Made by a program: the position numbers and the translations under genes
Assembly (NCBI GenBank): GCA_009838525.1
Contig: VXRJ01000027.1
Span: 30,954 to 90,968, forward strand
From: Acidobacteriota bacterium
Lineage (GTDB): Bacteria; Acidobacteriota; Vicinamibacteria; Vicinamibacterales; UBA8438
Reading direction: 5' to 3'
Length of the DNA stretch: 60,015 nucleotides
The notes under the pieces: model-generated
What the model was told of the DNA's origin: nothing
Database searches by the model: none
What the model saw: only the letters and a program-made list of their open reading frames with translations
Shown here: positions 3 through 53,424 of the stretch, piece after piece
Numbering within the stretch: position 1 is the first letter of the stretch
How the letters are laid out: each line of letters starts with the position of its first letter

Positions 3-533
3 CCCCCTTCCCCGTTACTCCGCTGAATGTGGTTCCTGGTCAACCTCCTGGCCGCGCACCGGCCCCCGCCCCCGCCGGACATGCCGGGGCTGCCCGAGAC
101 GGCCGACGACGGCGCGGCGCTTTCGATGCGCGCCGCGATGGAGCAGCACCGGGCGAACCCGGCGTGCGCAAGCTGTCACGCGCAGATGGACCCGCTCGGC
201 TTTGCCCTCGAGAATTTCGACGCCATTGGCCGCTGGCGTGACCGGGGCGAGTCGAACGAACCTATCGACGCGTCCGGCATCCTGCCGGATGGCAGCGCGT
301 TCGAGGGCCCCACCGGCATGCGGGAGGCGCTGTTGCGCGACGAGCGGCGATTCGTCACCACCATCGCCGAAAAGCTGCTCACCTATGCGCTCGGTCGCAA
401 CGTCGAGTCGTTCGACATGCCGGCCGTGCGGGCCATAGTCCGCGACGCCGAGGCGAACGATTACAGTTTCGAGTCGATAGTTGTCGGGATTGCCGAGAGC
501 ATTCCGTTCCAGATGAGGCTGGCACCATCATGA
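3..533 (+). CDS. DUF1592-family exported cytochrome, C-terminal fragment (DUF1588 end + DUF1585)
   Basis: This is the 3' end of a planctomycete/acidobacterial-type DUF1592 protein cut by the left edge of the window. It shows the Pro-rich hinge (PPPPPDMPGLPE), the CASCH heme-like motif followed by MDPLGFALENFD (DUF1588), and a C-terminal DUF1585 block ending in FQMRLAPS. The same order is seen in the complete paralogue at 4825-7293. Upstream codons read P-P-S-P-L-L-R-stop-M-W-F-L, which aligns with S-P-V-L-R-G-K-W-V-L of that paralogue, so a TGA at 24-26 replaces the conserved Gly codon. Either the gene is broken or the contig end carries an error; an ATG at 27 follows the stop. It overlaps the next gene by ATGA, so the pair is translationally coupled. 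The family function is unknown; a periplasmic electron-transfer or oxidative role is inferred from the CxxCH motif. Confidence 0.85.
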
Positions 534-1888
534 TCATCACCCAGAAAGCGCTTCCCCGTCGGACGTTCCTGCGCGGCGTTGGCGCGACCCTCGCGCTGCC
601 GTTCCTCGATGCGATGACACCGGCCGCCTCCGCCCTCGCGCGGCAGGTGACGGCGCCCGTCCGCCGGCTCGGGTTCATCTACGTCCCGAACGGCGTGATT
701 CAGGAGCAGTGGGTGCCGGAGCAGGTCGGACGGGGTTTCGAGTTCTCGCCGATCCTGAGCCCGCTCGAGCCGTTCCGCGATCAGTTGCTGGTTCTGAGCG
801 GCCTCGCGCACCGGCAGGCCGACTCGTTCGGCGACGGCAACGGCGACCATCCGCGCGCCACTGCCGTCTGGCTGAGCGGTGTCCATGCCTGGGAGCGCCG
901 CGGGCGGCAAGGGCCCACCGAGATCAAGCTGGGAGTGACGGCGGATCAGATCGCGGCGCGCGAGTTCGGCAAGGAAACGCCGCTCCCGTCGCTGGAGCTG
1001 GCCCTGGAGCAGCCGTCCGCGATCGCCTGCGACACCGGTGACTGCTTCTATTCCAACACCATCACCTGGCGCAACGAGACGACTCCGCTCGACATGGAGG
1101 CGCATCCGCGCGTCGTCTTCGAGCGGTTGTTCGGGGAGGGCGGAAGCGCTGCCGACCGGTTGGCGGTGATGCGCCAGACGGGCAGCATCCTCGATTCGGT
1201 CACCGCCGAGGTGGCGCGGCTGGAGCGGACGCTCGGCCCGTCCGACCGGAACAAGCTCGATGAGTATCTGGATGCGGTTCGCGATGTCGAGCAGCGGATT
1301 CAGCGCTCCGAGGCGCGCGGTCCCGACGCGTTCGTCGAGCTGCCGGAGCGCCCGGTGGACATCCCGGAGCAGTTCGAGGATCACGCGAAGCTGATGTTCG
1401 ATCTGCAGGTGCTGGCGTTTCAGGCGGACGTCACGCGGGTCTTCACGCTGATGATGGCGCGCGAGGCGAGCCCGCGGCCGTACCCGCAGATTGGCGTTCC
1501 GGATCAGCACCACACCGTGTCACACCACCGGAACGACCCGGAGTACATCGCCAAGAAGGCGAAGATCGACACGTACCACATCACGCTGCTGGCCGACCTC
1601 CTCGGCAAGCTGCGCGAGACGCCGGACGGCGACGGCACCCTGCTCGATCAGTCGATGATCGTCTACGGTGGCGGCATCGGGAACGGCAACCTGCACGAGC
1701 ACACCAACCTGCCGTGCCTCGTGGCGGGCGGTGGGGGCGGACGCCTCAACGGCGGGCGTCACCGCGCCTACGCGGCCGATACGCCGATGTCGAACCTGCT
1801 GCTGACGGTGCTCGACAAGGCGGGAGTGCCGGCGGACAAGCTGGGCGACAGCACGGGCCTGCTGAACACGGCGCCGCTCAGTCTCTAA
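530..1888 (+). CDS. DUF1552 domain protein, Tat-exported partner of DUF1592
   Basis: A 452-residue protein with a twin-arginine signal (PRRTFLRG, Arg10-Arg11, then a hydrophobic stretch ending near ALA) followed by one DUF1552 domain. The ATG overlaps the stop of the preceding DUF1592 fragment (ATGA). A two-cysteine loop (CDTGDC, about residue 165) is followed by SNTITWRNETTP, as in the paralogue at 7290-8621. Near the C-terminus SMIVYGGGIGNGN is followed by LPCLVAGGGG; this resembles the alkaline-phosphatase-like DUF1501 proteins that pair with PSD1 cytochromes in planctomycetes, but that relationship is my inference. Tat export suggests folding, possibly with a metal, before export. The biochemical activity of the family is not established. 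Confidence 0.9.
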   Translation: MIITQKALPRRTFLRGVGATLALPFLDAMTPAASALARQVTAPVRRLGFIYVPNGVIQEQWVPEQVGRGFEFSPILSPLEPFRDQLLVLSGLAHRQADSFGDGNGDHPRATAVWLSGVHAWERRGRQGPTEIKLGVTADQIAAREFGKETPLPSLELALEQPSAIACDTGDCFYSNTITWRNETTPLDMEAHPRVVFERLFGEGGSAADRLAVMRQTGSILDSVTAEVARLERTLGPSDRNKLDEYLDAVRDVEQRIQRSEARGPDAFVELPERPVDIPEQFEDHAKLMFDLQVLAFQADVTRVFTLMMAREASPRPYPQIGVPDQHHTVSHHRNDPEYIAKKAKIDTYHITLLADLLGKLRETPDGDGTLLDQSMIVYGGGIGNGNLHEHTNLPCLVAGGGGGRLNGGRHRAYAADTPMSNLLLTVLDKAGVPADKLGDSTGLLNTAPLSL

Positions 1889-1891
1889 TCG

Positions 1892-3385
1892 TCAGTTGGC
1901 GCCGAGCCGGCGGAGCAGGTCCGCGATCTCCGGACGGCTGGCGCGGAGACCGTTCGATCCGGGAATGGGAAGTTGGCTTTCCGCCAGCGCGAGCGCCGTC
2001 TCACCCCGTTCGTTCGTCGCGTCGAGGCGGGCGCCGTTCGACGCGAGCAGGTCCACTACCGACGCGAAGCCGATCCGAACCGCGTGATGCAGGGCAGTAT
2101 CTCCACGCTCGTCCGACAGATTCACGTCCACGCCCATCTCGAGGACTCTCCTGACGATGTCGAGGGTGAGCTGCTCCAGCTGGTCCGGGTCGATTTCCGG
2201 CGCGTCGACCTGGTTGCGGCGGTTCTCGGCGGCGTTCCGCGTGATGCCCATCGCGGCCTGTAGCGCGGACATCCGGTTGGCCGGCATGACGTGCGGGTCG
2301 GCGCCATGCTCCGCGAGAATGTGCAGGATCTCGGGCTCGCCATAGCGTGCCGCGAGCCAGAACGCGTTCGCGCCGATCCACTGGTGGCGGATGCTGAAAT
2401 CTGCGCTGAAACGCCGGCCCGGCGTCCCATGCTCGACCAGCGCGTCCACTTCGGCGCCGTGGTCCAGGAGCGCCTCGGCCAACGCCGCCTGGCTGCGGAG
2501 AACTGCCGCGTGGAGCGCCGTATAGCCCGCCGCGGCCGCGTTCGGGTCTGCGCCCTCCTCCAGCAGGAAGATGCCGAGGGGACCGTGGCCGCTGTGCGCC
2601 GCGATCACGAGCGCGCTGGTGCCGGCCGCGGCGGTCTCATTAGGGTCCGCTCCCGCCTCGATGAGGACGCGCGCGGTTTCGACATCTCCGCCGCGCGCCG
2701 CGAACAGCAGCGGCGTCGAACCACCGTGGGACATCCGGAAATTGCCGCTGGTGTTGGTATTCCCCGCCGTGTTCTCCAACTGATCCCAGACACGGCTCCG
2801 GGCGGTCAGGTCGGCGCCCGCGTCGAGCAGCAGTTGCGCTACGTCGGCGTGCCCCTGCGCGGCGGCCCACATAAGCGCCGTCTGCTCGCGTTCGCGCTCG
2901 GCGGTGTTCGGGCTGGCCCCCGCGTCGAGCAGCAGGGCGACGGTCTCCGCCGCGCCCGAGCGGGCGGCAATCATCAGCGGCGTCTCACCCATCGCCAGCG
3001 TCAGGTCGGGATTCGCGCCGGCGTCGAGGAGCAGTTCGGTGATGGGGGCGCTACCGTTCTCGGCGGCCAGCCAGAGCGGCGTCGCGTCCAGGTCATTGGC
3101 GGCGTTGGGGTCGGCGCCCGCGTCAATGAGCAAACGCGCAATGGCGAGATTGTCGCGATGCGTCGCCCAGTGCAACGCACCGGCCCCGTCGCCCTGGCGG
3201 GCGTTGACGTCGGCGCCGGCGTCGATGAGGGCCTTCACGCCCTGCGCGTCGTCCGCACGCGCCGCCTCTACGAGCGCCGGGGCGCCGGGCGTCGGCGCCC
3301 CCGACTGCGCCGCCGCGGCGAGTGGCAGCGCGAGGGGCACGGCGAGCGCCAACATGTAAACAGTCAAGCTGCCGGCTTGTCGCAT
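1892..3385 (-). CDS. exported ankyrin-repeat protein
   Basis: 497 residues: a Sec signal peptide (hydrophobic core MLALAVPLALPLAAAAQ) followed almost entirely by ankyrin repeats, roughly ten or eleven copies of the 33-residue pattern with the A.LLLDAGADPN turn signature. An interruption around residues 325-350 (SADFSIRHQWIGANAFWLAA) breaks the regular spacing. Ankyrin repeats bind proteins; with the signal peptide the likely site is the periplasm. The gene converges on the DUF1552 gene with three bases between the stops, and lies between two DUF1592/DUF1552 modules, so a scaffold role for these proteins is possible but unproven. Its start ATG is chosen because it gives a complete signal peptide. 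Confidence 0.9.
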   Translation of the reverse strand: MRQAGSLTVYMLALAVPLALPLAAAAQSGAPTPGAPALVEAARADDAQGVKALIDAGADVNARQGDGAGALHWATHRDNLAIARLLIDAGADPNAANDLDATPLWLAAENGSAPITELLLDAGANPDLTLAMGETPLMIAARSGAAETVALLLDAGASPNTAEREREQTALMWAAAQGHADVAQLLLDAGADLTARSRVWDQLENTAGNTNTSGNFRMSHGGSTPLLFAARGGDVETARVLIEAGADPNETAAAGTSALVIAAHSGHGPLGIFLLEEGADPNAAAAGYTALHAAVLRSQAALAEALLDHGAEVDALVEHGTPGRRFSADFSIRHQWIGANAFWLAARYGEPEILHILAEHGADPHVMPANRMSALQAAMGITRNAAENRRNQVDAPEIDPDQLEQLTLDIVRRVLEMGVDVNLSDERGDTALHHAVRIGFASVVDLLASNGARLDATNERGETALALAESQLPIPGSNGLRASRPEIADLLRRLGAN

Positions 3386-3570: not shown

Positions 3571-4749
3571 ATGGTAGATGTCCCGAGGCCGCTGAGAGAG
3601 CTCTATCCCCACCTGCGGTTCTGCCGGCATTGGGAGATCGGTCCGGACGTCCATTATCAACTCGGCCAGTGCAACACCATCATCCGTGCGATCCAGGAAA
3701 CTCCGCTCAGCCCGGATCGCTACCGTGAACTCAAGCAGGTGGCCCTGATCAAGGGTGCGCAGGCGACTACCGCGATCGAGGGCAACACGCTGACCGACCT
3801 CGAGGTGCAGCAGGTGGCAGCGGGTAAATCGTTGCCGCCCAGCAAGGAATACCAGGAAAGGGAGGTTCGCAACGTCCTCGACGCCATGAACAAGATCGTG
3901 CAGGACATTGCTGGCCGGCGGGAGATCCCACGGGTCTCTCCGGCGCTCCTCCGGAACTTCCACCGCCAGATCGGAACCGAGTTGGGCGAGCACTTCGACG
4001 CGGTGCCCGGACAATTCCGAACGGACGAACGGGTTGTCGGTCCGTACCGGTGCCCCCGTGCGGCCGACGTTCCGCAGCTTGTCAACCTACTGTGTCGATG
4101 GCTAAGCGAGGACTTCCCCGCGAACGGGAATGCGCCAGCTTTCTCGGATGCGGTGATTCAGGCGGTCGTAACTCACGTCTACATCGAGTGGATCCATCCC
4201 TTCGGAGACGGAAACGGCCGGACCGGCCGGATGCTGGAGTTCTACCTGCTCCTGCGGGCCGGCAATCCAGACATCGCGTCGCACATCTTGTCCAACTTCT
4301 ACAACCTGACGCGGCCCGAGTACTACCGGCAGATCCACCAGGCATGCATTAGCCGAGACCTCGGGGCGTTCATCGCCTACGCGGTAGAGGGCTATCGCGA
4401 CGGTCTGTTGGAGAGGCTGCACACTATTCAGCAGCATCAGTTCGAGATCGCCTGGCGGACACTCATCCATGATCGCTTCGCCGGGCAGAGTTACCGCAAG
4501 AAGCCCGTGTTCAGACGTCGGCGGGAGCTGATGCTGAACTTTCCGCTGAACAAGACAGTCACGCTCGACGGGCTGCCGATGCTGACTCTCGGCTTGGCGC
4601 GGGAATACGCCAGGCTGACGGAAACTACTCTGCTCCGGGATCTGAGAGTGTTGATCGACATGGATCTGGTCGTCCGGGACGAACCCGGCGGCGGCTATCG
4701 GGCCAACATGGAGTTGTTGCGCCGCCACCTGCCCGCGCGACGGGGGTGA
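3571..4749 (+). CDS. Fic family protein (class II, with C-terminal winged helix)
   Basis: 392 residues. The Fic core motif HPFGDGNGRTGR is complete (residues 209-220; catalytic His209), predicting AMPylation (or related NMP transfer) of a target protein hydroxyl. The N-terminal inhibitory motif TTAIEG (66-71; Glu70) matches [S/T]xxxE[G/N], which makes it an auto-inhibited class II Fic. The last ~80 residues (from NKTVTLDGLPMLTLGL) look like a winged helix-turn-helix, as in SoFic-type proteins. I place the start at ATG 3571, directly after a palindrome; the frame is open further upstream, but that part (CKSNSACRFSDKYYDVFV) has no family character. No antitoxin gene is adjacent. The target is unknown; autoregulation through the winged helix is an inference. 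Confidence 0.9.
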   Translation: MVDVPRPLRELYPHLRFCRHWEIGPDVHYQLGQCNTIIRAIQETPLSPDRYRELKQVALIKGAQATTAIEGNTLTDLEVQQVAAGKSLPPSKEYQEREVRNVLDAMNKIVQDIAGRREIPRVSPALLRNFHRQIGTELGEHFDAVPGQFRTDERVVGPYRCPRAADVPQLVNLLCRWLSEDFPANGNAPAFSDAVIQAVVTHVYIEWIHPFGDGNGRTGRMLEFYLLLRAGNPDIASHILSNFYNLTRPEYYRQIHQACISRDLGAFIAYAVEGYRDGLLERLHTIQQHQFEIAWRTLIHDRFAGQSYRKKPVFRRRRELMLNFPLNKTVTLDGLPMLTLGLAREYARLTETTLLRDLRVLIDMDLVVRDEPGGGYRANMELLRRHLPARRG

Positions 4750-4824: not shown

Positions 4825-7293
4825 ATGTTTCACGGCGTTCGTGTCCGGTTGATGCCATGCGGCGTGTTGGCGCTTGCCCTCGCCGCGGGGCCGTTCCTCG
4901 CCTCGCCGCCCGCCGCGCTTGCCCAGGAGGCGCCGCCCGAGGCGCAGCTGTTGCAGCAGACGGTCGGACGCTACTGCGTCACGTGCCACAACGACCGGCT
5001 TCGGACGGCGGAGCTTTCGCTGGACGGTGTTGATCTCGCCCAGGTAGGCGCCCACGCGGAGACCTGGGAGAAGGTCATCTCGAAGCTTCGGACCCGGACG
5101 ATGCCGCCGGTCGGCCGGCCGCGCCCCGACATCGAGACATACGACACCCTGGCGGCCTGGCTCGAGTCGGAGGTGGACGCGTACGCCGCGTCCCGCCCCA
5201 GCCCGGGACGGACAGAGGCGTTCCACCGGTTGAACCGGGCCGAGTATGCCAACGCCATCCGCGACCTGCTCGCACTCGACGTGGACGTCGCCGCGCTCCT
5301 TCCCGCCGACAACATCGATCAGTACGGCTTCGACAACATGGCGGATGTGCTGACCGTATCGCCCGCGCTGATGGAACGCTACCTGTCGGCCGCCCGGAAG
5401 ATCGGAAGAACCGCCGTCGGCGAAGTGCCGCTCGGGCCGGCCGTCGAGACCTACAAGGTGCCCATCCTCCTGACCCAGGACGACCGGATGGGAGACGACC
5501 TGCCGTTCGGATCGCGCGGCGGAATCGGCGTTCGGCACCACTTCCCGGCCGATGGCGAGTACGACCTGGAGATTGTCCTGCACCGGAACTATGTCAACTA
5601 CGTCCGCGGCATGGGATCACGTCATCAGCTACAGGTGCGCCTGGACGGTGAACTGGTTCGCACCTTCACGTTCGGGGGCGAGGAACCGGACGTCACGCAG
5701 GCGCCCGCCAGCTACGCCGGCAACCAGTTCGGCGACCCGGAGTGGGAAGAGTACATGCTCTACGCCGACGCCAACATGCGGGTGCGGTTCGAGGCGACGG
5801 CGGGTCCACACGTGGTGAGCGTCTCGTTCGTCCGGCGGTTCACGGAGCCGGAAGGGGTGCTGCAGCCGCGCCAGAGCATATTCGCGGTCGCGGTGAACGA
5901 GATGCGCGACGGCGACGCCGCGGTGGAGTACATGGCGGTCGGCGGGCCGTACGTCAGCACGGGTCCGGGCGATACGCCCAGCCGGCGCGCAATCTTCATC
6001 TGCCGGCCGGACGAGGAGGCGGCGGTGGACGAGGAGGACGCGTGCGCGGAGGAGATCCTCGCGTCCCTGGCGCGGCGCGCGTACCGCCGGCCGATTGACA
6101 CGGCCGACCTGTCCACGCTGATGGACTTCTACCGCTCCGGGCGCGACGACGGCAGCTTCGACGCCGGCATTCAGCTTGCCCTCGAGCGGCTGCTCATTTC
6201 TCCCGACTTCCTCTTCCGCGTCGAGCGCGATCCGGTGGACGCCGAGCCCGGGACGGTTTACGCGCTGAACGATCTGGAGATTGCTTCGCGCCTGTCGTAC
6301 TTCCTCTGGTCGAGCGGCCCGGACGATGTCCTGCTCGACCTGGCCGCGCAGGGTGGACTGAACGATCCGGAGGTGTTGGCCGACCAGGCTCGCCGCATGC
6401 TGGCCGACCCGAAGGCGGCGGCCTTCGTGCGCAACTTCGCCGGGCAGTGGCTCTATCTCCGCAACCTGCGGGGCGTCGTACCGGACGCGAAGATATTCCC
6501 GGAGTTCGACGAGAACCTGCGCGACGCATTCCTTCAGGAGACCGAGCTGTTCGTCGAGAGCCTGGTGCGCGAGGACACCAGCGTGCTCGATCTACTCGGC
6601 GCCGACTACACCTTTGTCAACGAGCGGCTTGCTCGGCACTACGGCATACCGGGGATCTACGGCAGCCACTTCCGGCGGGTCGCGCTCGCCCCGGAGGTGG
6701 CCGAGCTGCGTGGCGGTATCTTCGGTCACGGCAGCCTGCTGACCGTGACCTCGTATCCGAACCGCACCTCGCCAGTGCTGCGCGGCAAATGGGTGCTCAC
6801 CAACATTCTCGGAACGCCGCCGCCGCCACCACCCGCCGATGTGCCGGACCTTCCGGACCGGGGCGAGGACGGCCGCGCCGCGACCGTGCGGGATCGGCTG
6901 GCCGTCCACCGTGAGAGCCCCGCCTGCTCGGTCTGCCACGCGCCGATGGATCCACTCGGGCTGGCGCTGGAGAACTACGACGCGGTCGGCACGTGGCGGA
7001 CGACTGGAGAGGCGGAACTACCGATAGATGCATCGGGCCAGCTGCCGGACGGTACCGCCTTCGACGGGCCGATCGGGCTGCGGTCGCTGCTGCTGGAGCG
7101 GAGGGAGCAGTTCGTCGGGACGCTGACGGAGAAGTTGCTGGCGTATGCGCTGGGGCGGGCCCCGGAGTACTACGACCGGCCGACGATTCGGGCGATCGGC
7201 CGGGCGGCGGCTTCCAGTGGCTACCGGTGGTCGGATATCATTGTCGGCATCGTACAGAGCACGCCGTTCCGGATGCGGAGGGCAGAGTCATGA
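4825..7293 (+). CDS. DUF1592 multi-domain exported cytochrome (DUF1587-1595-1592-1588-1585)
   Basis: 822 residues, complete. A Sec signal peptide ending near AALAQ is followed by a cytochrome-like CVTCH motif (about residues 51-55), DUF1587 (about 125-190, FHRLNRAEYANAIRDLL), a beta-rich insert (about 205-350), DUF1595 (about 415-475), DUF1592 (about 480-610, EIASRLSYFLWSSGPDD), DUF1588 with the hinge TPPPPPPADVP and a second CxxCH (CSVCH, about 701-705), and C-terminal DUF1585. A strong ribosome site GAGGAGG (4808-4814) lies 10 bases before the ATG. The product should be a periplasmic c-type cytochrome; substrate and partner are not known. It overlaps the next gene by ATGA, as in the module at the left edge. 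Confidence 0.93.
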   Translation: MFHGVRVRLMPCGVLALALAAGPFLASPPAALAQEAPPEAQLLQQTVGRYCVTCHNDRLRTAELSLDGVDLAQVGAHAETWEKVISKLRTRTMPPVGRPRPDIETYDTLAAWLESEVDAYAASRPSPGRTEAFHRLNRAEYANAIRDLLALDVDVAALLPADNIDQYGFDNMADVLTVSPALMERYLSAARKIGRTAVGEVPLGPAVETYKVPILLTQDDRMGDDLPFGSRGGIGVRHHFPADGEYDLEIVLHRNYVNYVRGMGSRHQLQVRLDGELVRTFTFGGEEPDVTQAPASYAGNQFGDPEWEEYMLYADANMRVRFEATAGPHVVSVSFVRRFTEPEGVLQPRQSIFAVAVNEMRDGDAAVEYMAVGGPYVSTGPGDTPSRRAIFICRPDEEAAVDEEDACAEEILASLARRAYRRPIDTADLSTLMDFYRSGRDDGSFDAGIQLALERLLISPDFLFRVERDPVDAEPGTVYALNDLEIASRLSYFLWSSGPDDVLLDLAAQGGLNDPEVLADQARRMLADPKAAAFVRNFAGQWLYLRNLRGVVPDAKIFPEFDENLRDAFLQETELFVESLVREDTSVLDLLGADYTFVNERLARHYGIPGIYGSHFRRVALAPEVAELRGGIFGHGSLLTVTSYPNRTSPVLRGKWVLTNILGTPPPPPPADVPDLPDRGEDGRAATVRDRLAVHRESPACSVCHAPMDPLGLALENYDAVGTWRTTGEAELPIDASGQLPDGTAFDGPIGLRSLLLERREQFVGTLTEKLLAYALGRAPEYYDRPTIRAIGRAAASSGYRWSDIIVGIVQSTPFRMRRAES

Positions 7294-8621
7294 TGATCAC
7301 CAGGAAGGCGATTCCACGCCGCACCGTCCTGCGCGGCCTTGGCGCGTCGGTCGCGTTGCCGTTGCTCGACGGCATGGTTCCCGCATTTGCGGCGATCCGC
7401 CGAACCGCGGCGGCGCCGGTCAAGCGCTACGGCGTCGTCTACGTTCCGAACGGCATGATGATGCCCCACTGGACGCCCAAGACCGAGGGAGCCGGGTTCG
7501 AGTTCCCGACCATCATGCAGCCGCTTGAGCCGTTCCGCCGGTACGTGCAGGTGCTTTCCGGCATGCATGGTGTCGAGAGCGAAGGGCCGCACGCCCGCTC
7601 GTCGACGCGCTTCCTGACCGGGGTGCCGTCCAAGCAGGACGATGGGTCGAACCTGTTGGCGGCGGTTTCCGCCGATCAGCTCGCGGGCCGCGTGCTCGGG
7701 CAGGAAACGCAGCTCGCCACGCTGGAGCTGGCGATCGACGGCCGCGACTTCGCCGGTTCGTGCGACGACGGCTTTTCGTGCGCCTACACCAATACCGTCG
7801 CCTGGGCGAACGAGACGACACCGCTCCCGATGGAGAACAACCCGCGGGTCGTCTTCGAGCGTCTCTTCGGCGACACCGGCACCACCAACCCGGAGATCCG
7901 CAGGGCCCGGCTGAAGAAGGACGCCAGCCTGCTTGATTCAGTCACCGAGCGGGCCGCCGATCTGTCGCGCGAACTCGGAGCTGGCGACCGGGCGAAGCTG
8001 GGGCAGTACCTCGATGCGGTCCGCGATATCGAGCGCCGGATCCAGATGGCCGAGGCACAGAGCGATCGCGAGCTTCCCGTGGTCGATCAGCCGTCGGGAA
8101 TTCCGTCGACGTTCGGCGAGCACGTGGAGCTGATGTTCGACCTGCAGGCGCTCGCGTGGGAAACCGACCTGACGCGCGTGACCACCTTCATGCTGGGCCG
8201 CGAGATCACCGGCCGCACCTACGCCGAGATTGGCGTGCCGGATGCACACCATCCGATCTCGCACCATCAGAAGGACCCGGCGAAGTTGGCGAAGCTGACG
8301 AAGATCAACCAGTACCACGTGCAGCTCTTCGCGCACTTCCTGGAGCGGTTGGCGGCAACGCCGGATGGCGACGGGACGCTGCTGGACAACTCGATGATCG
8401 TCTACGGCGCCGGGATGGCCGACAGCAACGCTCACGCTTCCCAGAACCTGCCGATCCTGCTGGCGGGCGGCGGTGCGGGGACGGGCGGTCACCACATCCG
8501 CTATCCGGAGGACACGCCGCTGGCGAACCTGCACGTCAGTCTGCTGGACAAACTGGGCGTGCCGGTTGATTCGCTCGGCCACGCCACCGGCAAGCTGCCG
8601 CTGGATCCGCTGCTGGCGTAA
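7290..8621 (+). CDS. DUF1552 domain protein, Tat-exported partner of DUF1592
   Basis: 443 residues from the ATG that overlaps the preceding stop (ATGA); a second ATG follows immediately. The Tat signal is PRRTVLRG (Arg10-Arg11). The body is a single DUF1552 domain, clearly paralogous to 530-1888: PVKRYGVVYVPNGMM, the cysteine loop CDDGFSC, ANETTPLPMENNPRVVFERLFG, and SMIVYGAGMADSN followed by LLAGGG. Export through Tat while its cytochrome partner goes through Sec implies assembly in the periplasm. The function is not established. A GC-rich hairpin of a dispersed family follows the stop. Confidence 0.92.
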   Translation: MMITRKAIPRRTVLRGLGASVALPLLDGMVPAFAAIRRTAAAPVKRYGVVYVPNGMMMPHWTPKTEGAGFEFPTIMQPLEPFRRYVQVLSGMHGVESEGPHARSSTRFLTGVPSKQDDGSNLLAAVSADQLAGRVLGQETQLATLELAIDGRDFAGSCDDGFSCAYTNTVAWANETTPLPMENNPRVVFERLFGDTGTTNPEIRRARLKKDASLLDSVTERAADLSRELGAGDRAKLGQYLDAVRDIERRIQMAEAQSDRELPVVDQPSGIPSTFGEHVELMFDLQALAWETDLTRVTTFMLGREITGRTYAEIGVPDAHHPISHHQKDPAKLAKLTKINQYHVQLFAHFLERLAATPDGDGTLLDNSMIVYGAGMADSNAHASQNLPILLAGGGAGTGGHHIRYPEDTPLANLHVSLLDKLGVPVDSLGHATGKLPLDPLLA

Positions 8622-8689: not shown

Positions 8690-11446
8690 CTACCGCAGGG
8701 TCGCCAGTTCGCTTGCGCTGACCGGCTCCGCCGGCCCGTGGAAGATCGCGTTGAATAGCAGCTTGAACGTCCCGCGCGTCTGCGTGCGGAACGCGATCTG
8801 GCTTCCCATCGTCACCGCGGCGCCCCGCCCGACCCGGAACGCGACGACGTTCGCCTGGTTGCGGAGGAACTCGTCGCCGAGCAGCCAACCGCTCGCCACC
8901 ATGTCATCGTCGTCCGGATAGCGCGAGATCACTTCGGCGTCGACATCGAAGCTGGGCAGCAGGCGATACGCCTGATCGAAACGGAAGAAGACCGGCCAGT
9001 CGTCCGGCATCCCGTAGCCGACCGGATGCCGCGGATTGTGCTCCTGCTTGAGCAGCGTGCCGGGCGAATAGAAGAGTGAGGTCGGATCGACGATCCGGTC
9101 GCGCAGCGCGGTGGCGAGCGACGCGGGGCTGCGGAAGACGTCGCGCAATCGTTCGTCCGCTTCTTGCGCCGTGACCCGCGGCGGGCGCCGAACGTTCGAA
9201 CGGATCGGGGCGCGGCGCGTGCTCCCCATCGGCAGCACCGGCTCGATCGGCAGGTCGAGCAATTCACGCGCCGTCTCTACGGACGACCCCAGCGCGACGA
9301 GTGTGCCGCCGTCCTCGACCCACTGCCGGAGCCGGCGCCAGCCGTCGCGCCCGATGCCGTACGCCCAGCGCCATCTCTCATCGTGACGCCGCGGATTGAG
9401 GCCGTTCACGATCCGGGCGCGGCTCGTGCCGGCCGGGAGAACGATGACGTCGTACTTCTCCTCGAGGTCGCCGTCGAAGTCGACCGACGAAACGACCGCA
9501 TGGTCGAGTTCGTACTTCTCGAAGAGCCACATCATCCAACCGCCCGGCATGTTGTTCGCGGCGCGCCAGAGGCCGACGCGGGTGGGCTCGCGCAGCCGGT
9601 GGCCGTCGACCGGCGGCGCCACGTCGAGTCCTGCCACCACGAGGCCCGTCTCCTCCGCCGTCCGTTCCAGTACCGATGCCGCTTCCCGCGTAGGCGGCAC
9701 CAGCCACGTGCCGGGAGGATGATCGCGACCGGCCACCTCGAACCATTCGGCGGCGCGGTAGATGGGAACCCCTGCCGCCTGCAGCCGCGCCGCCGCCAGG
9801 AACCCGGCGTTCGAACCGGGCGGCATCGCGTAGCCCCACGCCGGCGTCGGAGGCATCGGCATCCGGCGCGGCTCGATGGTCTCCAGACGTTCAAGGTCGG
9901 CCCGGACCGGCTCGTCGATCCGGTCGACATCGACACCCATCAACAGGCCGAGCGTGTGCGCCGTGACATCGTACGGCGGGATCGGCGGACCGCCGTCGTA
10001 ATAACGCAGATCGGGGTAGACCTGCCGCTCCAACATGGTCTTCGCGAACGCCCCGTACGGCTGCGCCAGGTCGATCACCCAGGAGCCGGCCGGGTAGCGC
10101 TCGCCGCCGGCGCTGAACGGCGCCCGCGCGCGATCGATCTCGACTTCGCCAAAGTGCAGGATCTCGAGCAGCTCGTAGGCCGCGAACGGGTCGCGCTGAT
10201 CGGCCGGGACGACGAAGGCGTACGGCGCTTCGTCGCGGTTCACCCAGTCGACATGGACGCGGTGGAAGTTCTCCATCCAGCGCGTGCGGTACTTCGCCAT
10301 GTGTTCCAGCGCGGCGTAGACAACGATCTCGCTGTACTCGACGATGTCACCCAGGCGCCACACCGCCGAGTCGTACGGCGTGGGGAAATTGGTCCTGACC
10401 TGCTGTGGTCCGAGCGGCCGGTTCGGGCCCGCCGGGTTGACGTAGGGATCGGCCAGGTTGGCGCTCGCGATCTCGGTCAGGATGCGCGGCTGCCCGTGGT
10501 ACACCATGTACTGTCGCGCTGGCGTCCAGAGGTCGTACTGGTCGCTGTTGATGACCCCTTTCTTGCCGGCCGCGGTGAGCGCCGCGGTCATCGCGCGGCC
10601 GATCTGCGCCTGCCCCTCCAGGAGGAGCGGGTGGATGTTCGGATCGTGCGGGTCGCGGAACGGCGGAACGAAGATCCTCGCGCCGCGGCTGCTCATCTGG
10701 TGCATGTCGTGCGTGATCTGCGGCTTGAAGTCGCGGTGAATGTCGATGGCGAGCCGCGTTTCCTTCTGCGTGAACATGAACCAGTCACGGTTGTCGTCAT
10801 GACCCGTGTAGCGGTGATACAGGTCCGGATAGACCCGGTTGTAGCCAGTGCCCTTGGTGTCGTACCAGTGGTCGATCACCAGCAACTGGCCGTCCGGGTT
10901 CTGCGACGGCACCAGCAGCACCACGGCGTTGTCGAGAATCTCCCGTATTTCCGGTGATTCCTCGGTAGCCAGACGGTGCGCAATGTTGATAATCACCTGC
11001 CCGGTCCCCACCTCGGTGGAGTGAATCGTGGCGAAGAGGAAATAGAAGGGAACTCCCTCGCGGGTTAGGGCGCGGGCCTCCTCCTCCGTCAGACCGCGCG
11101 GGTCGGCGAGCTGGTGGTTGATCGCGATGAGCCGGTCGAGCCGGTCCAGATTCTCTCTGGCGCTGATGGTGACGAGGACGTACGGGTTGCCGTTGGTTGT
11201 CGTGCCGCGCGGTGTGTAGGTGACGCGGTCGGAGCGACCGGCCAGGTGTTGCAGGTACTCGAGAACCCGCGGATACCGCGCCAGCTCACCGTCCGTCCCA
11301 ATCTCGAAGCCGAAGAACTCCGCCGGCGGCGTGATGCCGTAGCCGGACGCCGGCGCCTGCGCAGACGCCAGCCCCGTGGCGGCAACGAGCAGCCATGTGG
11401 CGGCGGCGAGCGTGACGCTGGCCCGGAAGTTGCGCGTGTGGTGCAC
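8690..11446 (-). CDS. exported M14-family zinc carboxypeptidase with C-terminal GATase-like domain
   Basis: About 918 residues. A signal peptide (TLAAATWLLVAATGLASAQA) precedes an M14 peptidase domain: HSTEVG (about residues 142-147) supplies the first zinc His and Glu, and IDIHRDFKPQITHDMHQM (about 225-245) the third ligand region. The frame runs through to a second half with YDVIVLPAGTSRARIV and WVEDGGTLVALGSSVE, which looks like a class-I-glutamine-amidotransferase-like fold (about 655-745). Much longer than classical carboxypeptidases (~300-400) but typical of acidobacterial secreted M14 proteins. I prefer GTG 11446 because GGGAGG lies seven bases upstream; an in-frame GTG at 11479 would add 11 residues. 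Likely role: periplasmic peptide or cell-wall peptide degradation. Confidence 0.9.
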   Translation of the reverse strand: MHHTRNFRASVTLAAATWLLVAATGLASAQAPASGYGITPPAEFFGFEIGTDGELARYPRVLEYLQHLAGRSDRVTYTPRGTTTNGNPYVLVTISARENLDRLDRLIAINHQLADPRGLTEEEARALTREGVPFYFLFATIHSTEVGTGQVIINIAHRLATEESPEIREILDNAVVLLVPSQNPDGQLLVIDHWYDTKGTGYNRVYPDLYHRYTGHDDNRDWFMFTQKETRLAIDIHRDFKPQITHDMHQMSSRGARIFVPPFRDPHDPNIHPLLLEGQAQIGRAMTAALTAAGKKGVINSDQYDLWTPARQYMVYHGQPRILTEIASANLADPYVNPAGPNRPLGPQQVRTNFPTPYDSAVWRLGDIVEYSEIVVYAALEHMAKYRTRWMENFHRVHVDWVNRDEAPYAFVVPADQRDPFAAYELLEILHFGEVEIDRARAPFSAGGERYPAGSWVIDLAQPYGAFAKTMLERQVYPDLRYYDGGPPIPPYDVTAHTLGLLMGVDVDRIDEPVRADLERLETIEPRRMPMPPTPAWGYAMPPGSNAGFLAAARLQAAGVPIYRAAEWFEVAGRDHPPGTWLVPPTREAASVLERTAEETGLVVAGLDVAPPVDGHRLREPTRVGLWRAANNMPGGWMMWLFEKYELDHAVVSSVDFDGDLEEKYDVIVLPAGTSRARIVNGLNPRRHDERWRWAYGIGRDGWRRLRQWVEDGGTLVALGSSVETARELLDLPIEPVLPMGSTRRAPIRSNVRRPPRVTAQEADERLRDVFRSPASLATALRDRIVDPTSLFYSPGTLLKQEHNPRHPVGYGMPDDWPVFFRFDQAYRLLPSFDVDAEVISRYPDDDDMVASGWLLGDEFLRNQANVVAFRVGRGAAVTMGSQIAFRTQTRGTFKLLFNAIFHGPAEPVSASELATLR

Positions 11447-43347: not shown

Positions 43348-44004
43348 ATGGGAGACGCGGCTCACACGCACATGAGTAGTGAGGAGTGCCAGGCCCAACA
43401 GCCGGGCGTCTCGCGACGGGGCTTTATCAAGGGCGTTATCGCGACCGGCGCAAGCGTGTCGGCGTCCGGCTACGTCCTGCGGAACAACGGCATTGTGCTG
43501 GCGCAGGCGCCGGGCGCGGTCGAGCGGCTCGTGACGCTCAACGTCAACGGGCAGCAGCGGCGCGTCGACGTCATGCCGCAGGAAACGCTGGCGATGACAC
43601 TGCGCTACAAGCTGGGGCTCACCGGCACGAAGATCGGTTGCGACCGTGCCGAGTGCGGCGCCTGCACCGTTCTGGTCGATGGGGTCCCGCAGTACTCCTG
43701 CTCGACGCTTACTCATCAGGTGCGCGGGCGCGAGGTTCTGACGATCGAGGGCCTCGAGAGCGCCGATGGGACGCTGCACCCGGTGCAGCAGGCGGTGGTC
43801 GACTTGCAGGGCTTCCAGTGTGCGTTCTGCATGTCGGGGTTCGTGATGAACATGGTCGCGCTCACCGAGGAGAACCCGAACGCTACGCGTGGCGAGGCGG
43901 CCCACCACCTGGCCGGCAACATCTGCCGGTGCATCGACTACAACAAGATCCTCAACGTCGCAGAGAAGGCGTGCGAGTACACGCGTAACGGGATGAGGAG
44001 CTGA
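43348..44004 (+). CDS. periplasmic Mo-hydroxylase [2Fe-2S] subunit, Tat-exported
   Basis: 218 residues. Tat motif SRRGFIK (22-28) heads a leader ending near AQA. The plant-type [2Fe-2S] cluster uses Cys98, 103, 106, 118 and the second cluster Cys158, 161, 193, 195 (CAFC and CRC). This is the small subunit of the xanthine oxidase family, most like PaoA or isoquinoline-1-oxidoreductase. It carries the only Tat signal among the three subunits, so it should bring the folded complex across the membrane. AGGAGG precedes ATG 43348. The Moco subunit gene follows after two bases. Confidence 0.94.
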   Translation: MGDAAHTHMSSEECQAQQPGVSRRGFIKGVIATGASVSASGYVLRNNGIVLAQAPGAVERLVTLNVNGQQRRVDVMPQETLAMTLRYKLGLTGTKIGCDRAECGACTVLVDGVPQYSCSTLTHQVRGREVLTIEGLESADGTLHPVQQAVVDLQGFQCAFCMSGFVMNMVALTEENPNATRGEAAHHLAGNICRCIDYNKILNVAEKACEYTRNGMRS

Positions 44005-44006
44005 CG

Positions 44007-46433: not shown

Positions 46434-46469
46434 CGCCGAACTGGAACATCTGGAGAGGGAGAAGATCCA

Positions 46470-48311: not shown

Positions 48312-48799
48312 GCGCCGTTACCCTCAAGGCGCTCGTCGACGTCGTCGAAGAAAGCTACGAGTTCTGTCTTGCGTACGCGGCCCGCGGAGTCACTCCGCAG
48401 ATGGCCAAGGCCGGCGACACGCAGGTACGCAGGCAGCTACAGCAGTTGGCGGAAGCCCTTCCGCAACTGAGCGACGCCTTTCTGAACCTGGCGGGCGAAC
48501 GGGACGAGTCGCGCCGGGGAGATTACCGGCGATTCATCGAGGTGCTTCGGCGCGACGCGGAATCGGCGCGAGCTGCGGTCGACCTCGTGCTGGCGCAGCC
48601 CGGCATTACGTCACAGATGGTCGATAACCTGAACGGCATGATTCACGTTCGGGCGTTGCTGACCGACGTATTCCTCGTGGACGAGATGCTCCGTCCGGAC
48701 GCGCCACAGGCGCCGCACGTGCAGCCTGAGCCTGCGCCTGGAGTTCCGGCTGACGTTCCGCCACCGCCCGATCGATCCACAGAGCCGCAGCAGACCTAG
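48308..48799 (+). CDS. helical protein of unknown function at the end of the Mo-hydroxylase operon
   Basis: 163 residues, starting at TTG 48308, which overlaps the cytochrome b stop (TTGA). Residues 1-130 are predicted helical (LKALVDVVEESYEFCLAYAA, RRFIEVLRRDAESARAAVDL); the last 30 are Pro-rich. No signal peptide or cofactor motif. Translational coupling suggests a role in assembling or maturing the complex, but I cannot assign it. It is not an XdhC/PaoD homologue by motif. Confidence 0.75.
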   Translation: MSAVTLKALVDVVEESYEFCLAYAARGVTPQMAKAGDTQVRRQLQQLAEALPQLSDAFLNLAGERDESRRGDYRRFIEVLRRDAESARAAVDLVLAQPGITSQMVDNLNGMIHVRALLTDVFLVDEMLRPDAPQAPHVQPEPAPGVPADVPPPPDRSTEPQQT

Positions 48800-49582: not shown

Positions 49583-49647
49583 CGTGCCCGAAACGACCTC
49601 CGGCTTTCGCATTGCAATGGGTGTATCCGCTGTGTTAGCGTAGGCAT

Positions 49648-49663
49648 GTTAGTAGTCACTAAC
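49648..49663. promoter_or_regulatory. operator-like inverted repeat upstream of the third DUF1592 gene
   Basis: GTTAGT (49648-49653), AGTC, ACTAAC (49658-49663): a perfect 6-bp inverted repeat. It lies 75 bases upstream of ATG 49739 in the only AT-rich part of this gap. The regulator is unknown. Confidence 0.45.
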
Positions 49664-49738
49664 TTATGGGCGCCGCCGCTGGCGGCCCCTGGCTGCACCG
49701 GTCGACCGGCACACGGAGCGTGGCAGGGGACTAAGACG

Positions 49739-52150
49739 ATGCTCAACATGCGTGCCATCGCGGTGGCAGCGCTGGCGCTCGTTCCGGCGTTGGCGTCCGC
49801 CCAGCCCATCGAAGCCGATGTCAGGGCGCTGGTCCAGGGATCCTGCATCGCCTGCCACGGTGCGCGCACCGTAACGCCCCTCAACTTCGAAGAAATCGAC
49901 TTCGATCTGACGAACCGCGAGACCCACCGCAAGTGGGAGCGGGTCTTCGAGCGGGTCGAGGCGGGCGAGATGCCGCCGCGAGGCGCTCCGCGCCCGGATC
50001 CCGCGATCGCGGAGAAGGCGCTTGACGCGTTGCGCGGCGGTCTCGTCGGCGCCAGTCTCGCCGCCCGCGGTCCGCAACGGACACCGTTGCGGCGGCTGAC
50101 GCGGCTCGAGTACGCCTACACCCTGCAAGACCTGTTGGGGATCGATGAAGACGTCGCCCGCGACCTGGGACAGATGCTGCCGGCCGAGGCGGATTCCGGG
50201 GGATTCGATACGGTGGCGGCCAATCAGACCATGTCGTCGCTGCATGTGCGGAGCTATCTCGACGCGGCCGACCGCGCCCTTGATGCGGCGCTCCAGGTCG
50301 GGCCGCGCCCGGTGTCCGAGACCCGCCGGATCGACTACGCGGCCTCCGAGTACCTTCACATGATCAGCTCCGGCAAGTTCCTGGGCGCGGGGATCGTGAA
50401 GAAGCTCGATGACGCGTACGTCGCGTTCTACGACACCGGGTCCACTTATACGCTGCACAGCGCCAGCGAGGGCTATGGGGTGCCGTCTCCGGGCCGGTAC
50501 CGCGTCACGCTGGATGCGTATGCGTACCAGGCCAGCACGCCGGTCACGCTTACCGTGTACCGCGGCAAGATGGCAGGGATTACGGCGTCGCTGGACAACC
50601 TGATCGGTGTCTTCGATCTGCTCGATGAAGCGGGTCGTACCATCATCCTGGAGACGTTCATGCGCCCGGGCGAGTTGATCGCGCCGTCGGTGGCGGAACT
50701 GCTTCCCCCGGTCGACGCTCCCCCTCCCAATCACTTCGCGCCGGATCAGAACGTCGACAACTGGATGGGCGAAGGGATCGCGCTCAGGTCTCTGACGATC
50801 GAGGGGCCGCTTTTTGACACTTGGCCGCCGGAGAGCACGAGGCAACTCTTGACGGGTGTCGACTTTGATGACACAGGCGAAATACGGCTGACGAAGGAGC
50901 CGTACGAGCACGTCAAGGACATCGTGGCGCGTTTCGCGCCGCTAGCGTTCCGCCGGCCGCTGGTCGAGGGCGAGCTGGAGGCCTACGCGGGGCTGGCCAA
51001 GCCGTTCCTCGGCGATGGCCAGCCGTTCAGCGAGGCGATACGGGTACCGCTTCGCGCCGTCCTGTCCGCACCGCCGTTTCTCTTCCACGCGAGTAGCGCG
51101 GGAGGCCTGGACGCCTTCGCTCTGGCGACCCGGCTCTCGTACTTCCTCTGGCGGAGCATGCCGGATGCCGAGCTAACGGATCTGGCGCATGCAGACCGGC
51201 TGACCGATCCGGCGGTGCTGTCGGCGCAGGTCGACCGGATGCTGGACGACCCGAAGAGCCAGCGCTTCGTAACCGACTACGCCGGCCAGGCGCTGCGCCT
51301 CTACGAGATCCGGCAGACGAGCCCGGACGCGAGCCTGTACCCGGAGTACGACGATCGTCTCGGGCAGGCGATGCGCCTGGAGACCGAGCTCTTCCTGCAG
51401 GAACTGGTCGCCGGGAATCTCGGGGTCGATCACCTGGTCGACTCCGACTTCACTTTCGTGAACCGCCGCCTCGCGGAGCACTACGGTATCGAAGGCGTGA
51501 CGGGACAGTACATGCGAAGGGTGGAGTTGCCGGCCGACAGCCCGCGTGGCGGAATTCTCACGCAGGCGAGCATTCACAAGATCACCGCCAACGGCACGAC
51601 GACCTCCCCGGTCCCGCGCGGCAACTACGTCCTGGCGAACCTGCTCGGAACACCTGCGCCGCCACCACCCGCCGATGTCGGCTCACTCGAGCCGGACACT
51701 CGCGGCACGACGACCATCCGCGAGCAGTTGACGGCGCATCGCGCCAACCCCGTCTGTGCGAGTTGCCACCGGTCCATAGATCCGCCCGGTTTTGCGCTCG
51801 AGTCGTTCGATCCGATCGGTGGATTTCGCAACAACTACCGGGTTTCCGGCGGTACGGGAAGGTTCGGTGGTTTCGCCGAGGGCCCAGCCGTCGACACGAC
51901 CGGAGTGACGCCCCAAGGCGACCGCTTCGACGGAATCGTGGAGTACAAGCAGATCCTGCTCGAGCAGGAACTTGATAAAGTGGCCCGGCACTTTGCGTCC
52001 CAGTTGCTGATCTTCTCGACGGGTGCGGAGATTGAGTTCGCGGACAGGGATGCAGTGGATCAGATCGTCGCCCGTCTTCGCGATCAGGGATATCCGATCC
52101 GGAGCATGATTCACGAGGTCGTCGGGAGCGACCTCTTCAGGAGACAGTAG
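49739..52150 (+). CDS. DUF1592 multi-domain exported cytochrome, third copy
   Basis: 803 residues from ATG 49739 (ATG 49646 in the same frame lies inside a palindrome and would lengthen the leader). Signal peptide IAVAALALVPALASA, heme motif CIACH (36-40), DUF1587 (LRRLTRLEYAYTLQDLLGID), DUF1595, DUF1592 (ATRLSYFLWRSMPDAE), DUF1588 with TPAPPPPADVGSLE and CASCHRSIDPPG, then DUF1585. Compared with the copy at 4825 it has an insertion of about 20 residues after FALESFDPIG (RVSGGTGRFGGFAEGPAVDT) and a different mid-region. Followed after two bases by its DUF1552 partner. Confidence 0.92.
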   Translation: MLNMRAIAVAALALVPALASAQPIEADVRALVQGSCIACHGARTVTPLNFEEIDFDLTNRETHRKWERVFERVEAGEMPPRGAPRPDPAIAEKALDALRGGLVGASLAARGPQRTPLRRLTRLEYAYTLQDLLGIDEDVARDLGQMLPAEADSGGFDTVAANQTMSSLHVRSYLDAADRALDAALQVGPRPVSETRRIDYAASEYLHMISSGKFLGAGIVKKLDDAYVAFYDTGSTYTLHSASEGYGVPSPGRYRVTLDAYAYQASTPVTLTVYRGKMAGITASLDNLIGVFDLLDEAGRTIILETFMRPGELIAPSVAELLPPVDAPPPNHFAPDQNVDNWMGEGIALRSLTIEGPLFDTWPPESTRQLLTGVDFDDTGEIRLTKEPYEHVKDIVARFAPLAFRRPLVEGELEAYAGLAKPFLGDGQPFSEAIRVPLRAVLSAPPFLFHASSAGGLDAFALATRLSYFLWRSMPDAELTDLAHADRLTDPAVLSAQVDRMLDDPKSQRFVTDYAGQALRLYEIRQTSPDASLYPEYDDRLGQAMRLETELFLQELVAGNLGVDHLVDSDFTFVNRRLAEHYGIEGVTGQYMRRVELPADSPRGGILTQASIHKITANGTTTSPVPRGNYVLANLLGTPAPPPPADVGSLEPDTRGTTTIREQLTAHRANPVCASCHRSIDPPGFALESFDPIGGFRNNYRVSGGTGRFGGFAEGPAVDTTGVTPQGDRFDGIVEYKQILLEQELDKVARHFASQLLIFSTGAEIEFADRDAVDQIVARLRDQGYPIRSMIHEVVGSDLFRRQ

Positions 52151-52152
52151 CC

Positions 52153-53424
52153 ATGACATTGCCCCGACCGCTCGACCGCCGGACGTTTCTCCGGGCTTCG
52201 GGTGTTGCGCTTGCCCTGCCATGGCTCGAGTCGATGACGCCGGCCCTGGTGCGCGCCTCGGCTACCGCGCCGCCGCGGATGCTGAACATCTGCAACACGC
52301 TCGGCCTGTATTCGTCATCGTGGTTCCCAACCGCGGCGGGTGCCGGTTACGAGGCGACCGAATACCTGTCGCTCATCGATCACCACCGAGAGCAGTACAC
52401 TCTCTTTAGTGGCTTTTCGCACGAAGAGCAGACCGGCCGCCAACCACATAACTCGGAGATCACCTGGCTGACGGCGGCCCGGCGTCCGGGGCTTGATGGG
52501 TTCCGGAACAGCATCTCGGTGGACCAGGTCGCGGCCAACCACCTCGGTTACGTGACGCGGTTCCCCTCCGTCGTGCTCGGCACGGCGACGCCGCAGAGCC
52601 AGTCGTACACCAGCAGTGGAGCGATGGTGCCCGCCGAATCCAGCGCGGCCAGCGTGTTCAAGCAGCTCTTCCTGCAGGGTACGCCGGAGGAAGTGGAACG
52701 CGAGACCCGCAGCCTGAACGCGGGGGCCAGCATTCTCGATCGTCTGCAGTCGCAGACCACGGCGCTGCGGGGACGCGTCAGCTCGACCGATCAGCGGACG
52801 CTTGACGCCTACTTCGACGCTGTACGCACCGCCGAGCAGGAACTGGCTGAGGTGCAGGCCTGGCAGAAGCGGCCGAAGCCCGTGGTGGCGGAGGAACCTC
52901 CCGAGGACCTGCCGAACGCGGCGGACCTGGTAGGCCGTGTCAAGCTGATGTACCGGCTGATTCCCCTTATTCTCGAGACCGACTCGTCGCGCGTCGTGAG
53001 CCTGATGATCCAGGACCACGGCACTGTCCTGAACGTGCCCGGGGTCAGCATCGACCAGCACGGCCTCTCGCACCATGGGCAGGACGAGTCGAAGATTGCC
53101 CAGCTCAAGCTGATCGAGAGGGAACTCGTCTCCGCATTTGGCGAGTTGCTGACCGACTTGCGGAGCCGCACCGGCGCCGACGGCGCCAGCCTGCTCGACT
53201 CGACGATGGTCCTCTTCGGGAGCAATCTCGGTAACGCGAACGCGCATACCGCGAGCGACCTGCCGATCCTCCTTGCCGGAGGCGGTTTCAACCACGGCCA
53301 TCACATCGTCCACGAGGGCGAAGAGAACGCGCCACTCTGCAACCTGTTCGTCACCATGCTCCAGAACATGGGCGTGGAAACCGACGCGTTTGCGCAGAGC
53401 ACCAGCGCCCTGACCTGGTCCTGA
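52153..53424 (+). CDS. DUF1552 domain protein, Tat-exported partner, divergent third copy
   Basis: 423 residues. Tat signal LDRRTFLRASGVALALPWLE (Arg9-Arg10). DUF1552 body with ARPGLDGFRNSISVDQVAAN, DSSRVVSLMIQDHGTVLN and DSTMVLFGSNLGNANAHTAS. Unlike the copies at 530 and 7290 it lacks the two-cysteine loop (here TPQSQSYTSSGAM), so it is a separate subtype matched to the divergent DUF1592 upstream. The gap to that gene is two bases. Function unknown. Confidence 0.92.
   Translation: MTLPRPLDRRTFLRASGVALALPWLESMTPALVRASATAPPRMLNICNTLGLYSSSWFPTAAGAGYEATEYLSLIDHHREQYTLFSGFSHEEQTGRQPHNSEITWLTAARRPGLDGFRNSISVDQVAANHLGYVTRFPSVVLGTATPQSQSYTSSGAMVPAESSAASVFKQLFLQGTPEEVERETRSLNAGASILDRLQSQTTALRGRVSSTDQRTLDAYFDAVRTAEQELAEVQAWQKRPKPVVAEEPPEDLPNAADLVGRVKLMYRLIPLILETDSSRVVSLMIQDHGTVLNVPGVSIDQHGLSHHGQDESKIAQLKLIERELVSAFGELLTDLRSRTGADGASLLDSTMVLFGSNLGNANAHTASDLPILLAGGGFNHGHHIVHEGEENAPLCNLFVTMLQNMGVETDAFAQSTSALTWS

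Follow-up and report, generated by a model that had tools for sequence, protein, structure and literature searches.

The window analysed here is a stretch of 60,015 nucleotides from an Acidobacteriota bacterium (Vicinamibacterales; UBA8438; GenBank assembly GCA_009838525.1, contig VXRJ01000027.1, positions 30,954 to 90,968 of the forward strand), and it carries three modules in which a gene for an exported DUF1592-type cytochrome is paired with one for a DUF1552 protein bearing a twin-arginine translocation (Tat) signal. The genome holds 25 such modules, most of which include an exported ankyrin-repeat protein as a third component. We propose, tentatively and short of calling it probable, that they are many diverged copies of a periplasmic or exported electron-transfer unit for the oxidative breakdown of saccharides or similar small organic compounds. 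The proposal rests on gene sets, co-occurrence, fold, motif conservation and the architecture of relatives, from which we infer the complex, the binding of haem and metal, the electron flow, the substrate and the role of the ankyrin protein. The gene pair has been in print since 2017, with its function unknown; new here are the trio with its expansion and a dehydrogenase fusion.

A sequence-only reading of the window had described three two-gene modules, and all three pairs were recovered (the cytochrome of module 1 incomplete; Table 1), together with the junctions it had reported, ATGA at 530 and 7290 and two bases (52151-52152) at the third module; as a copy count, three proved far too low for a genome with 25 DUF1552 genes. 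The window DUF1552 proteins scored 320.8, 316.9 and 223.9 bits against PF07586 (HXXSHH; curated cut-off 30), and all five Pfam domains PSD3-PSD5-PSD4-PSCyt3-PSD2 (DUF1587/1595/1592/1588/1585) were found in that order in the cytochromes of modules 2 and 3. Both of these complete cytochromes have the two CxxCH motifs that had been claimed for each module, the second motif of module 1 lying outside the window. The Tat signal assigned to DUF1552 was likewise upheld, with a twin-arginine motif in 91 of 96 DUF1552 proteins and export itself predicted. In the assembly, window position 1 comes directly after ten N's that follow poly-C/G sequence. Most of the missing module 1 cytochrome was located by tblastn upstream of the window in another frame (L072 relative, residues 1-588); this gene thus appears split because of the assembly gap immediately before the window. 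A biological frameshift was rejected for module 1, as N's and poly-C/G sequence at the break are most simply an assembly gap. Similar residues were seen on either side of this gap, and two paralogous copies may have been joined there.

Profile searches of the genome (4.29 Mb in 38 contigs, 96.85% complete) returned 25 DUF1552 and 27 PSD4/DUF1592 matches. A DUF1592 gene adjoined DUF1552 on the same strand in all 25 cases and lay upstream in 24, with a four-base overlap between the two genes in 15 modules; on contig C33 (L109, 6363-12565) the order is reversed, DUF1552 being followed by two tandem DUF1592 cytochromes, and a solo DUF1592 gene without an adjoining DUF1552 is found at C38:103718. 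Across a set of 79 named-genome loci, drawn from Vicinamibacteria, other Acidobacteriota, Gemmatimonadota, Gammaproteobacteria and a few more, tblastn placed the cytochrome gene directly upstream of DUF1552 in 77, a count that includes the manual addition of L074, whose DUF1552 match falls in two pieces. These tblastn counts replace those from a gene caller (70/74 for the cytochrome, 57/73 for ankyrin), which failed on lower-GC loci. L038 and L043 are true exceptions, having DUF1552 without any DUF1592 in the 5 kb upstream. In a phylum sample of 60 genomes DUF1552 was present in 8, DUF1592 in the same 8 and in G018, and neither in 51. The strict order and coupling that had been asserted from the window therefore stand for the own genome (25/25 adjoining) and for 77/79 loci elsewhere, and give way at the reversed module and at L038 and L043. 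Occurrence of either gene alone is rare, yet present, in the solo DUF1592 gene, the tandem extra copy, G018, L038 and L043.

Among 20 regions, some of them picked because an open frame ran to 1216-1525 codons, none showed a natural DUF1592-DUF1552 fusion; the gene calls at L205 and L206 could not be used. The long frames were rejected as fusions, being out-of-frame overlap in high-GC DNA. At L204 (1960-7500, in the relative G061), several short genes stand between DUF1552 and a partial cytochrome gene, in what appears to be a module in decay.

DUF1552 occurs in 15 to 47 copies in each of 16 genomes of the own family (this genome and 15 others) and in 0 to 13 copies in 10 genomes from other families of the same order; with so many copies in the one and few elsewhere, the expansion is chiefly that of one family. 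In a partial sample (90 others), for 19/25 own copies the nearest relative was a copy in a different genome, not a sister copy, and the copies are therefore mostly old and kept. Within one genome, paralogue distances of DUF1552 and of the cytochrome correlated at r 0.96 (24 pairs); over 17 trios, r was 0.74 for DUF1552-cytochrome, 0.51 for DUF1552-ankyrin and 0.65 for cytochrome-ankyrin (Mantel p 0.0002).

The ankyrin protein is part of most modules, which goes beyond the two-gene pair of the sequence-only reading. An exported ankyrin-repeat gene directly adjoins 18/25 own-genome modules (in 14 cases it shares their strand, and the gap is then -1 to 113 bases), and three further modules have one within five genes, which in two cases (window module 2 included) adjoins the neighbouring module. 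An Ank_2 search of the genome gave about 22 loci, grouped by hand from 107 rows and with positions rounded, of which 20 lay within 7.5 kb of DUF1552, an area making up 7.9% of the genome (binomial p 1.6e-20). The corresponding figures for the relative G061 were 31/37 loci and 9.3% (p 1.3e-26; matches limited to E 1e-8, 150 of 201 candidates scored); both p-values assume independent loci, an assumption that duplication breaks. Among the 79 named loci, ankyrin stood beside the module in 51 of the 57 with room on both sides, and 73 ankyrin proteins shared one common repeat pattern over their full length. A hydrophobic N-terminal stretch was scored in 20/20 own copies examined, but the score is crude and 49% of the remaining window proteins passed it as well. 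The trio recurs in Acidobacteriota, Gemmatimonadota, Gammaproteobacteria and Alphaproteobacteria, and on a plasmid of the soil bacterium Novosphingobium sp. KACC 22771 its three genes overlap as an operon. No report linking ankyrin to DUF1592/DUF1552 was found in the open-access literature searched.

The module 2 cytochrome was modelled with AlphaFold2 at a predicted local distance difference test score (pLDDT) of 85.8 and a predicted template modelling score (pTM) of 0.86, and reads, in order, as signal, cytochrome c-like part (CVTCH, MPP), PSD3, jelly roll, PSD5, PSD4, PSCyt3 (CSVCH) and PSD2. Fold matches were limited to the jelly roll, the helical haem domains being barely covered by the search. 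In 97 related cytochromes the first CxxCH was conserved in 86/86 aligned sequences, the second in 95/95 and Met93 of MPP in 92/93, the remainder being gaps; 84 of these proteins have two CxxCH motifs and 13 have one, many of the 13 probably having been cut at the N terminus by gene calling. With these CxxCH motifs and an axial ligand candidate, the DUF1592-type protein is predicted to be a c-type dihaem cytochrome.

For the module 2 DUF1552 protein, an AlphaFold2 model built from 40 sequences (pLDDT 78.8, pTM 0.83) has an overall fold like that of the alkaline phosphatase (AP) superfamily, which includes sulfatases and nucleotide pyrophosphatases/phosphodiesterases (NPPs), at Z scores from 16 to 17.6 across some 240 to 280 residues (VIA Z 17.6 with ENPP4, root-mean-square deviation 3.5 Å, 249 aligned). 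The best fold matches listed all belong to this superfamily; the first by Foldseek (E 2.0e-5) is, to judge from its code CgsB, presumably a carrageenan sulfatase. Profile alignment (hhalign) matched DUF1552 to DUF1501 at 94.9% (E 4.5e-8, 363 columns) when 23 DUF1501 sequences were used and at only 64.9% (83 columns) with 8, and haem-partnered DUF1501 to five sulfatases at 93.0% (E 3.4e-7). Fold search and full-length DUF1501 homology thus agree with the resemblance to AP-fold and DUF1501 proteins that had been suspected from the letters of the window. Sequence searches of solved structures, single or profile, gave no significant homologue of the DUF1552 or the DUF1592 protein, and NCBIfam has no matching model.

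Direct profile alignment of DUF1552 with sulfatases reached no significance (0.5% and 2.7%), and placement of the nucleophile therefore runs through DUF1501. In these two-step profiles the sulfatase formylglycine Cys (CxPxR..LLTG) aligns with His161 of DUF1501 and His161 with His101 of DUF1552, with the Thr of the common TG nine residues further on in each family. Sulfatase SDNG aligns with DUF1501 GEFG, and the Asp-Asn pair is not kept; in sulfatases these are the catalytic residues. The nucleophile motif was aligned with haem-partnered DUF1501 but not when all 23 DUF1501 sequences were set against 3 sulfatases. Of 97 DUF1552 proteins, 95 kept H101, 96 H321, 97 H325, 95 H326, 96 H382 and 93 H402, and D129, D216, D293 and D366 were kept in 97/97; in the module 3 protein the H101 column holds Pro, with His as the adjacent residue. 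Seven plasmid DUF1552 proteins (six divergent) kept H101, D129, D366 and H382, with HXXSHH in only one, a close relative. Unlike sulfatases and NPPs, DUF1552 apparently lacks the usual Ser, Thr or formylglycine-Cys nucleophile and has an almost invariant His in its place, which makes ordinary hydrolysis unlikely; the conserved histidines may form a metal site.

DUF1552 might nevertheless remain an AP-superfamily hydrolase (phosphatase, sulfatase or phosphodiesterase) acting through a His nucleophile or metal-bound water, with the cytochrome only binding substrate or being redox-regulated. The superfamily fold is clear, ENPP and sulfatases being among its matches, metals could be bound by several conserved Asp and His, and in the accessible text of one paper sulfatase genes lie near PSCyt genes in Verrucomicrobia (PMC5615132). 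We nonetheless regard this as unlikely, given the change from Cys to His through both families and from SDNG to GEFG in DUF1501, an obligate haem partner that would be left unexplained, and only 8 PF00884 matches in the own genome against 25 of DUF1552.

The best single clue to electron flow from sugar oxidation to the haem domains is a fusion on a plasmid of Pseudoalteromonas sp. Bsw20308 (L219, 375-8199). One protein of 2157 residues with four CxxCH motifs combines starch-binding CBM26 modules (three stretches), a glucose/sorbosone dehydrogenase domain, cytochrome c and PSD3-PSD5-PSD4-PSCyt3-PSD2, and a DUF1552 gene follows 16 bases downstream. Further contexts come from other plasmid records: in Sphingobium herbicidovorans the consecutive genes DUF1592 and DUF1552 lead on to those for cytochrome c' and cytochrome b561, close to genes for a TonB receptor and an AraC regulator (two further Sphingobium and one Novosphingobium are similar), and Planctomyces sp. 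SH-PL62 has DUF1587, DUF1592 and DUF1552 followed by a 3-keto-disaccharide hydrolase. In the own genome the 107 non-ankyrin neighbours were mixed, the commonest Pfam family being a beta-propeller dehydrogenase type dependent on pyrroloquinoline quinone (PQQ).

Comparable pairs have been described elsewhere. In Verrucomicrobia, PSCyt2 and PSCyt3 genes usually adjoin each of two families of unknown function, according to the accessible text of PMC5615132, and these are presumably DUF1501 and DUF1552. The PSCyt3/DUF1592-DUF1552 pairs of Planctomycetota and Verrucomicrobia have the same domain set and neighbour family as the window modules, which differ in their 25 copies (up to 47 in relatives) and in the ankyrin partner of most; the main text of PMC5615132, as available, has no ankyrin. 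In PSD1/PSCyt2-DUF1501 and DUF1800-DUF1501 pairs, too, the gene for a large exported protein is followed by one for an AP-fold partner with a Tat signal, although no homology of the PSD1 and DUF1800 partners to the DUF1592 protein was detected (hhalign 1.5% and 4.5%); CxxCH was the one feature seen in both the PSD1-type cytochrome and the DUF1592 protein, and none of the 10 DUF1800-like proteins, grouped by eye, has CxxCH. Eight DUF1501 genes were noted in the own genome (L133-L140), five behind PSD1-type and three behind DUF1800-like genes (assigned by eye), and these loci give the genome two further sets in which an AP-fold protein accompanies a large exported one.

A further likeness is to the CAZy X132/X183 proteins (Cbp2D, TERTU_2913, TERTU_3803), for which the accessible parts of the papers give CxxCH domains with DUF1587 beside carbohydrate-binding modules. 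As far as those parts go, Cbp2D, in which DUF1587 occurs together with cytochrome domains, plays an important part when C. japonicus grows on insoluble cellulose (PMC8981238, PMC12542752), redox proteins of its type carry DUF1587, X183 and X132 (PMC8981238, PMC10916295, PMC12542752; the PMC10916295 legend prints DUF1687, taken as DUF1587), and TERTU_3803 has a PQQ-dehydrogenase-like domain pair (PMC8981238; PMC10916295). DUF1587 and CxxCH are both present in the window cytochromes, and the same excerpts put DUF1587 at the X132 domain. The X132/X183 proteins differ in being multi-modular and cellulose-associated, and the available text mentions no DUF1552 or ankyrin partner for them; in that of PMC2754498 and PMC7789669 the domains are merely listed. 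The open-access literature searched agrees with the earlier statement that no activity is established for either family.

Under the proposed electron-transfer function, electrons would pass from a substrate dehydrogenase, in one organism part of the same chain, to the DUF1592-type protein, with its two predicted c-type haems and carbohydrate-binding-like jelly roll, and on to the respiratory chain. The Tat-exported DUF1552 protein would be the dedicated partner of the cytochrome, an AP fold whose hydrolytic nucleophile has turned into His; its His-rich pocket probably holds a metal and would bind substrate for oxidation or form a redox site. The exported ankyrin protein would most likely hold the partners together or help to load haem or metal, and each diverged copy probably serves a different substrate or donor.

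Several observations weigh against this proposal. Module 3 and three other divergent modules have no ankyrin partner of their own. The genes around the window modules include peptidases (M14, dipeptidyl peptidase IV (DPP IV) and M49), not sugar enzymes, and dehydrogenases make up just 10/107 neighbours as a raw count. The relatives in Pseudoalteromonas, Sphingobium and Planctomyces lack the HXXSHH motif, though they keep H101, D129, D366 and H382. According to the accessible text of PMC10916295, X183 domains of T. turnerae failed to feed a lytic polysaccharide monooxygenase (LPMO). The jelly roll (residues 202-379) is nearest to CBM35/CBM36 at Z 8.1 over 104 aligned residues, at the edge of significance, where chance is possible. 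The agreement of distances among module members fits co-inheritance and may not imply contact.

The modules could alternatively have their use in assembly or protection and not in catabolism, with the ankyrin and DUF1552 proteins acting as chaperones or haem or metal handlers for the cytochrome. A periplasmic ankyrin protein of Pseudomonas, AnkB, reportedly supports catalase; papers whose available text names both periplasmic ankyrin and catalase do exist, and ankyrin genes adjoin the modules. A shared chaperone is nevertheless hard to fit to 25 diverged copies, each with its own DUF1552, and the nearness of 19 of them to copies from other genomes in the partial sample suggests old, separately kept functions; with the dehydrogenase fusion in Pseudoalteromonas also pointing elsewhere, we rate this explanation as quite improbable. 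That the modules are mainly the outcome of a cell-surface or symbiosis trait having been duplicated in this lineage, with ankyrin proteins as host-contact factors and hitch-hiking redox genes, is very improbable: sponge-symbiont papers combine ankyrin and eukaryotic-like in their available text and only one family in the sample shows the strong expansion, but the trio is also present in Gemmatimonadota, in Gammaproteobacteria and, as an overlapping operon, on the plasmid of a soil Novosphingobium, and the 73 ankyrin proteins have one full-length repeat pattern.

The electron-transfer proposal can be widened into a bolder one, which we think doubtful as it stands: DUF1552 and DUF1501 would together form a branch of the AP superfamily that no longer hydrolyses esters and now serves dedicated haem proteins as their metal-dependent redox partner, the DUF1552 branch having acquired an exported ankyrin scaffold and, in one Acidobacteriota family, dozens of substrate-specific copies per genome.

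Table 1. Components of the three window modules and their peptidase neighbours (window positions).
Feature	Position	Strand	Evidence
Module 1 cytochrome, 3' part, PSCyt3 + PSD2, one CxxCH	27..533	+	PF07627, PF07624
Module 1 DUF1552 protein, Tat signal PRRTFLRG, all six conserved His kept	530..1888	+	PF07586 E 1.5e-95
Ankyrin-repeat protein, exported, third component; convergent, 3 bases from module 1 end	1892..3385	-	PF12796 E 5.1e-73
Module 2 DUF1592-type cytochrome, predicted dihaem	4825..7293	+	Pfam; AlphaFold2 model; haem motif conservation
Module 2 DUF1552 protein, Tat signal PRRTVLRG, His101 at nucleophile position	7290..8621	+	PF07586 E 2.3e-94
Module 3 DUF1592-type cytochrome, predicted dihaem, divergent subtype, CIACH + CASCH	49646..52150	+	Pfam
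Module 3 DUF1552 protein, divergent subtype, Tat signal DRRTFLRA, no ankyrin partner nearby	52153..53424	+	PF07586 E 4.6e-66
Peptidases M14, DPP IV/S9 and M49 beside modules 2 and 3	8690-11446, 55365-57587, 57775-59832		

Other genes lie close to the window modules. A Fic/DOC family protein is encoded between modules 1 and 2 (3571-4749), Fic being found in 2 of the 107 neighbours. The stretch 43348-48799 contains a molybdenum hydroxylase operon (2Fe-2S subunit with a Tat-like signal, molybdopterin subunit and flavin adenine dinucleotide (FAD) subunit), behind which lie a membrane protein of cytochrome b561 type and a 163-residue protein lacking a Pfam match; it ends about 850 bases before module 3. 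An exported protein without Pfam match (53424-54443) belongs to a family of which 8 distinct members lie no more than seven genes from own-genome modules, its common motif being like TPDGQPDLQGVW.

No function is known for the large families DUF1552, DUF1501 and the planctomycete cytochromes, with up to 47 DUF1552 genes per genome here; a phosphatase fold apparently without its usual nucleophile, dihaem and ankyrin companions in four bacterial groups and, in one organism, a fusion of the haem protein to a sugar dehydrogenase with starch-binding modules lead to a concrete, testable function. The modules may explain why CAZy X132/X183 redox domains show little activity when studied alone, a partner possibly being missing. 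With most ankyrin genes of this genome and of G061 lying within redox modules, ankyrin genes, commonly taken as evidence of symbiosis, can be components of a redox module, and their counts as symbiosis markers may therefore mislead in this lineage. If the bolder proposal is true, a phosphatase fold has been turned into an oxidoreductase, and the modules would be an oxidative counterpart of polysaccharide utilisation loci.

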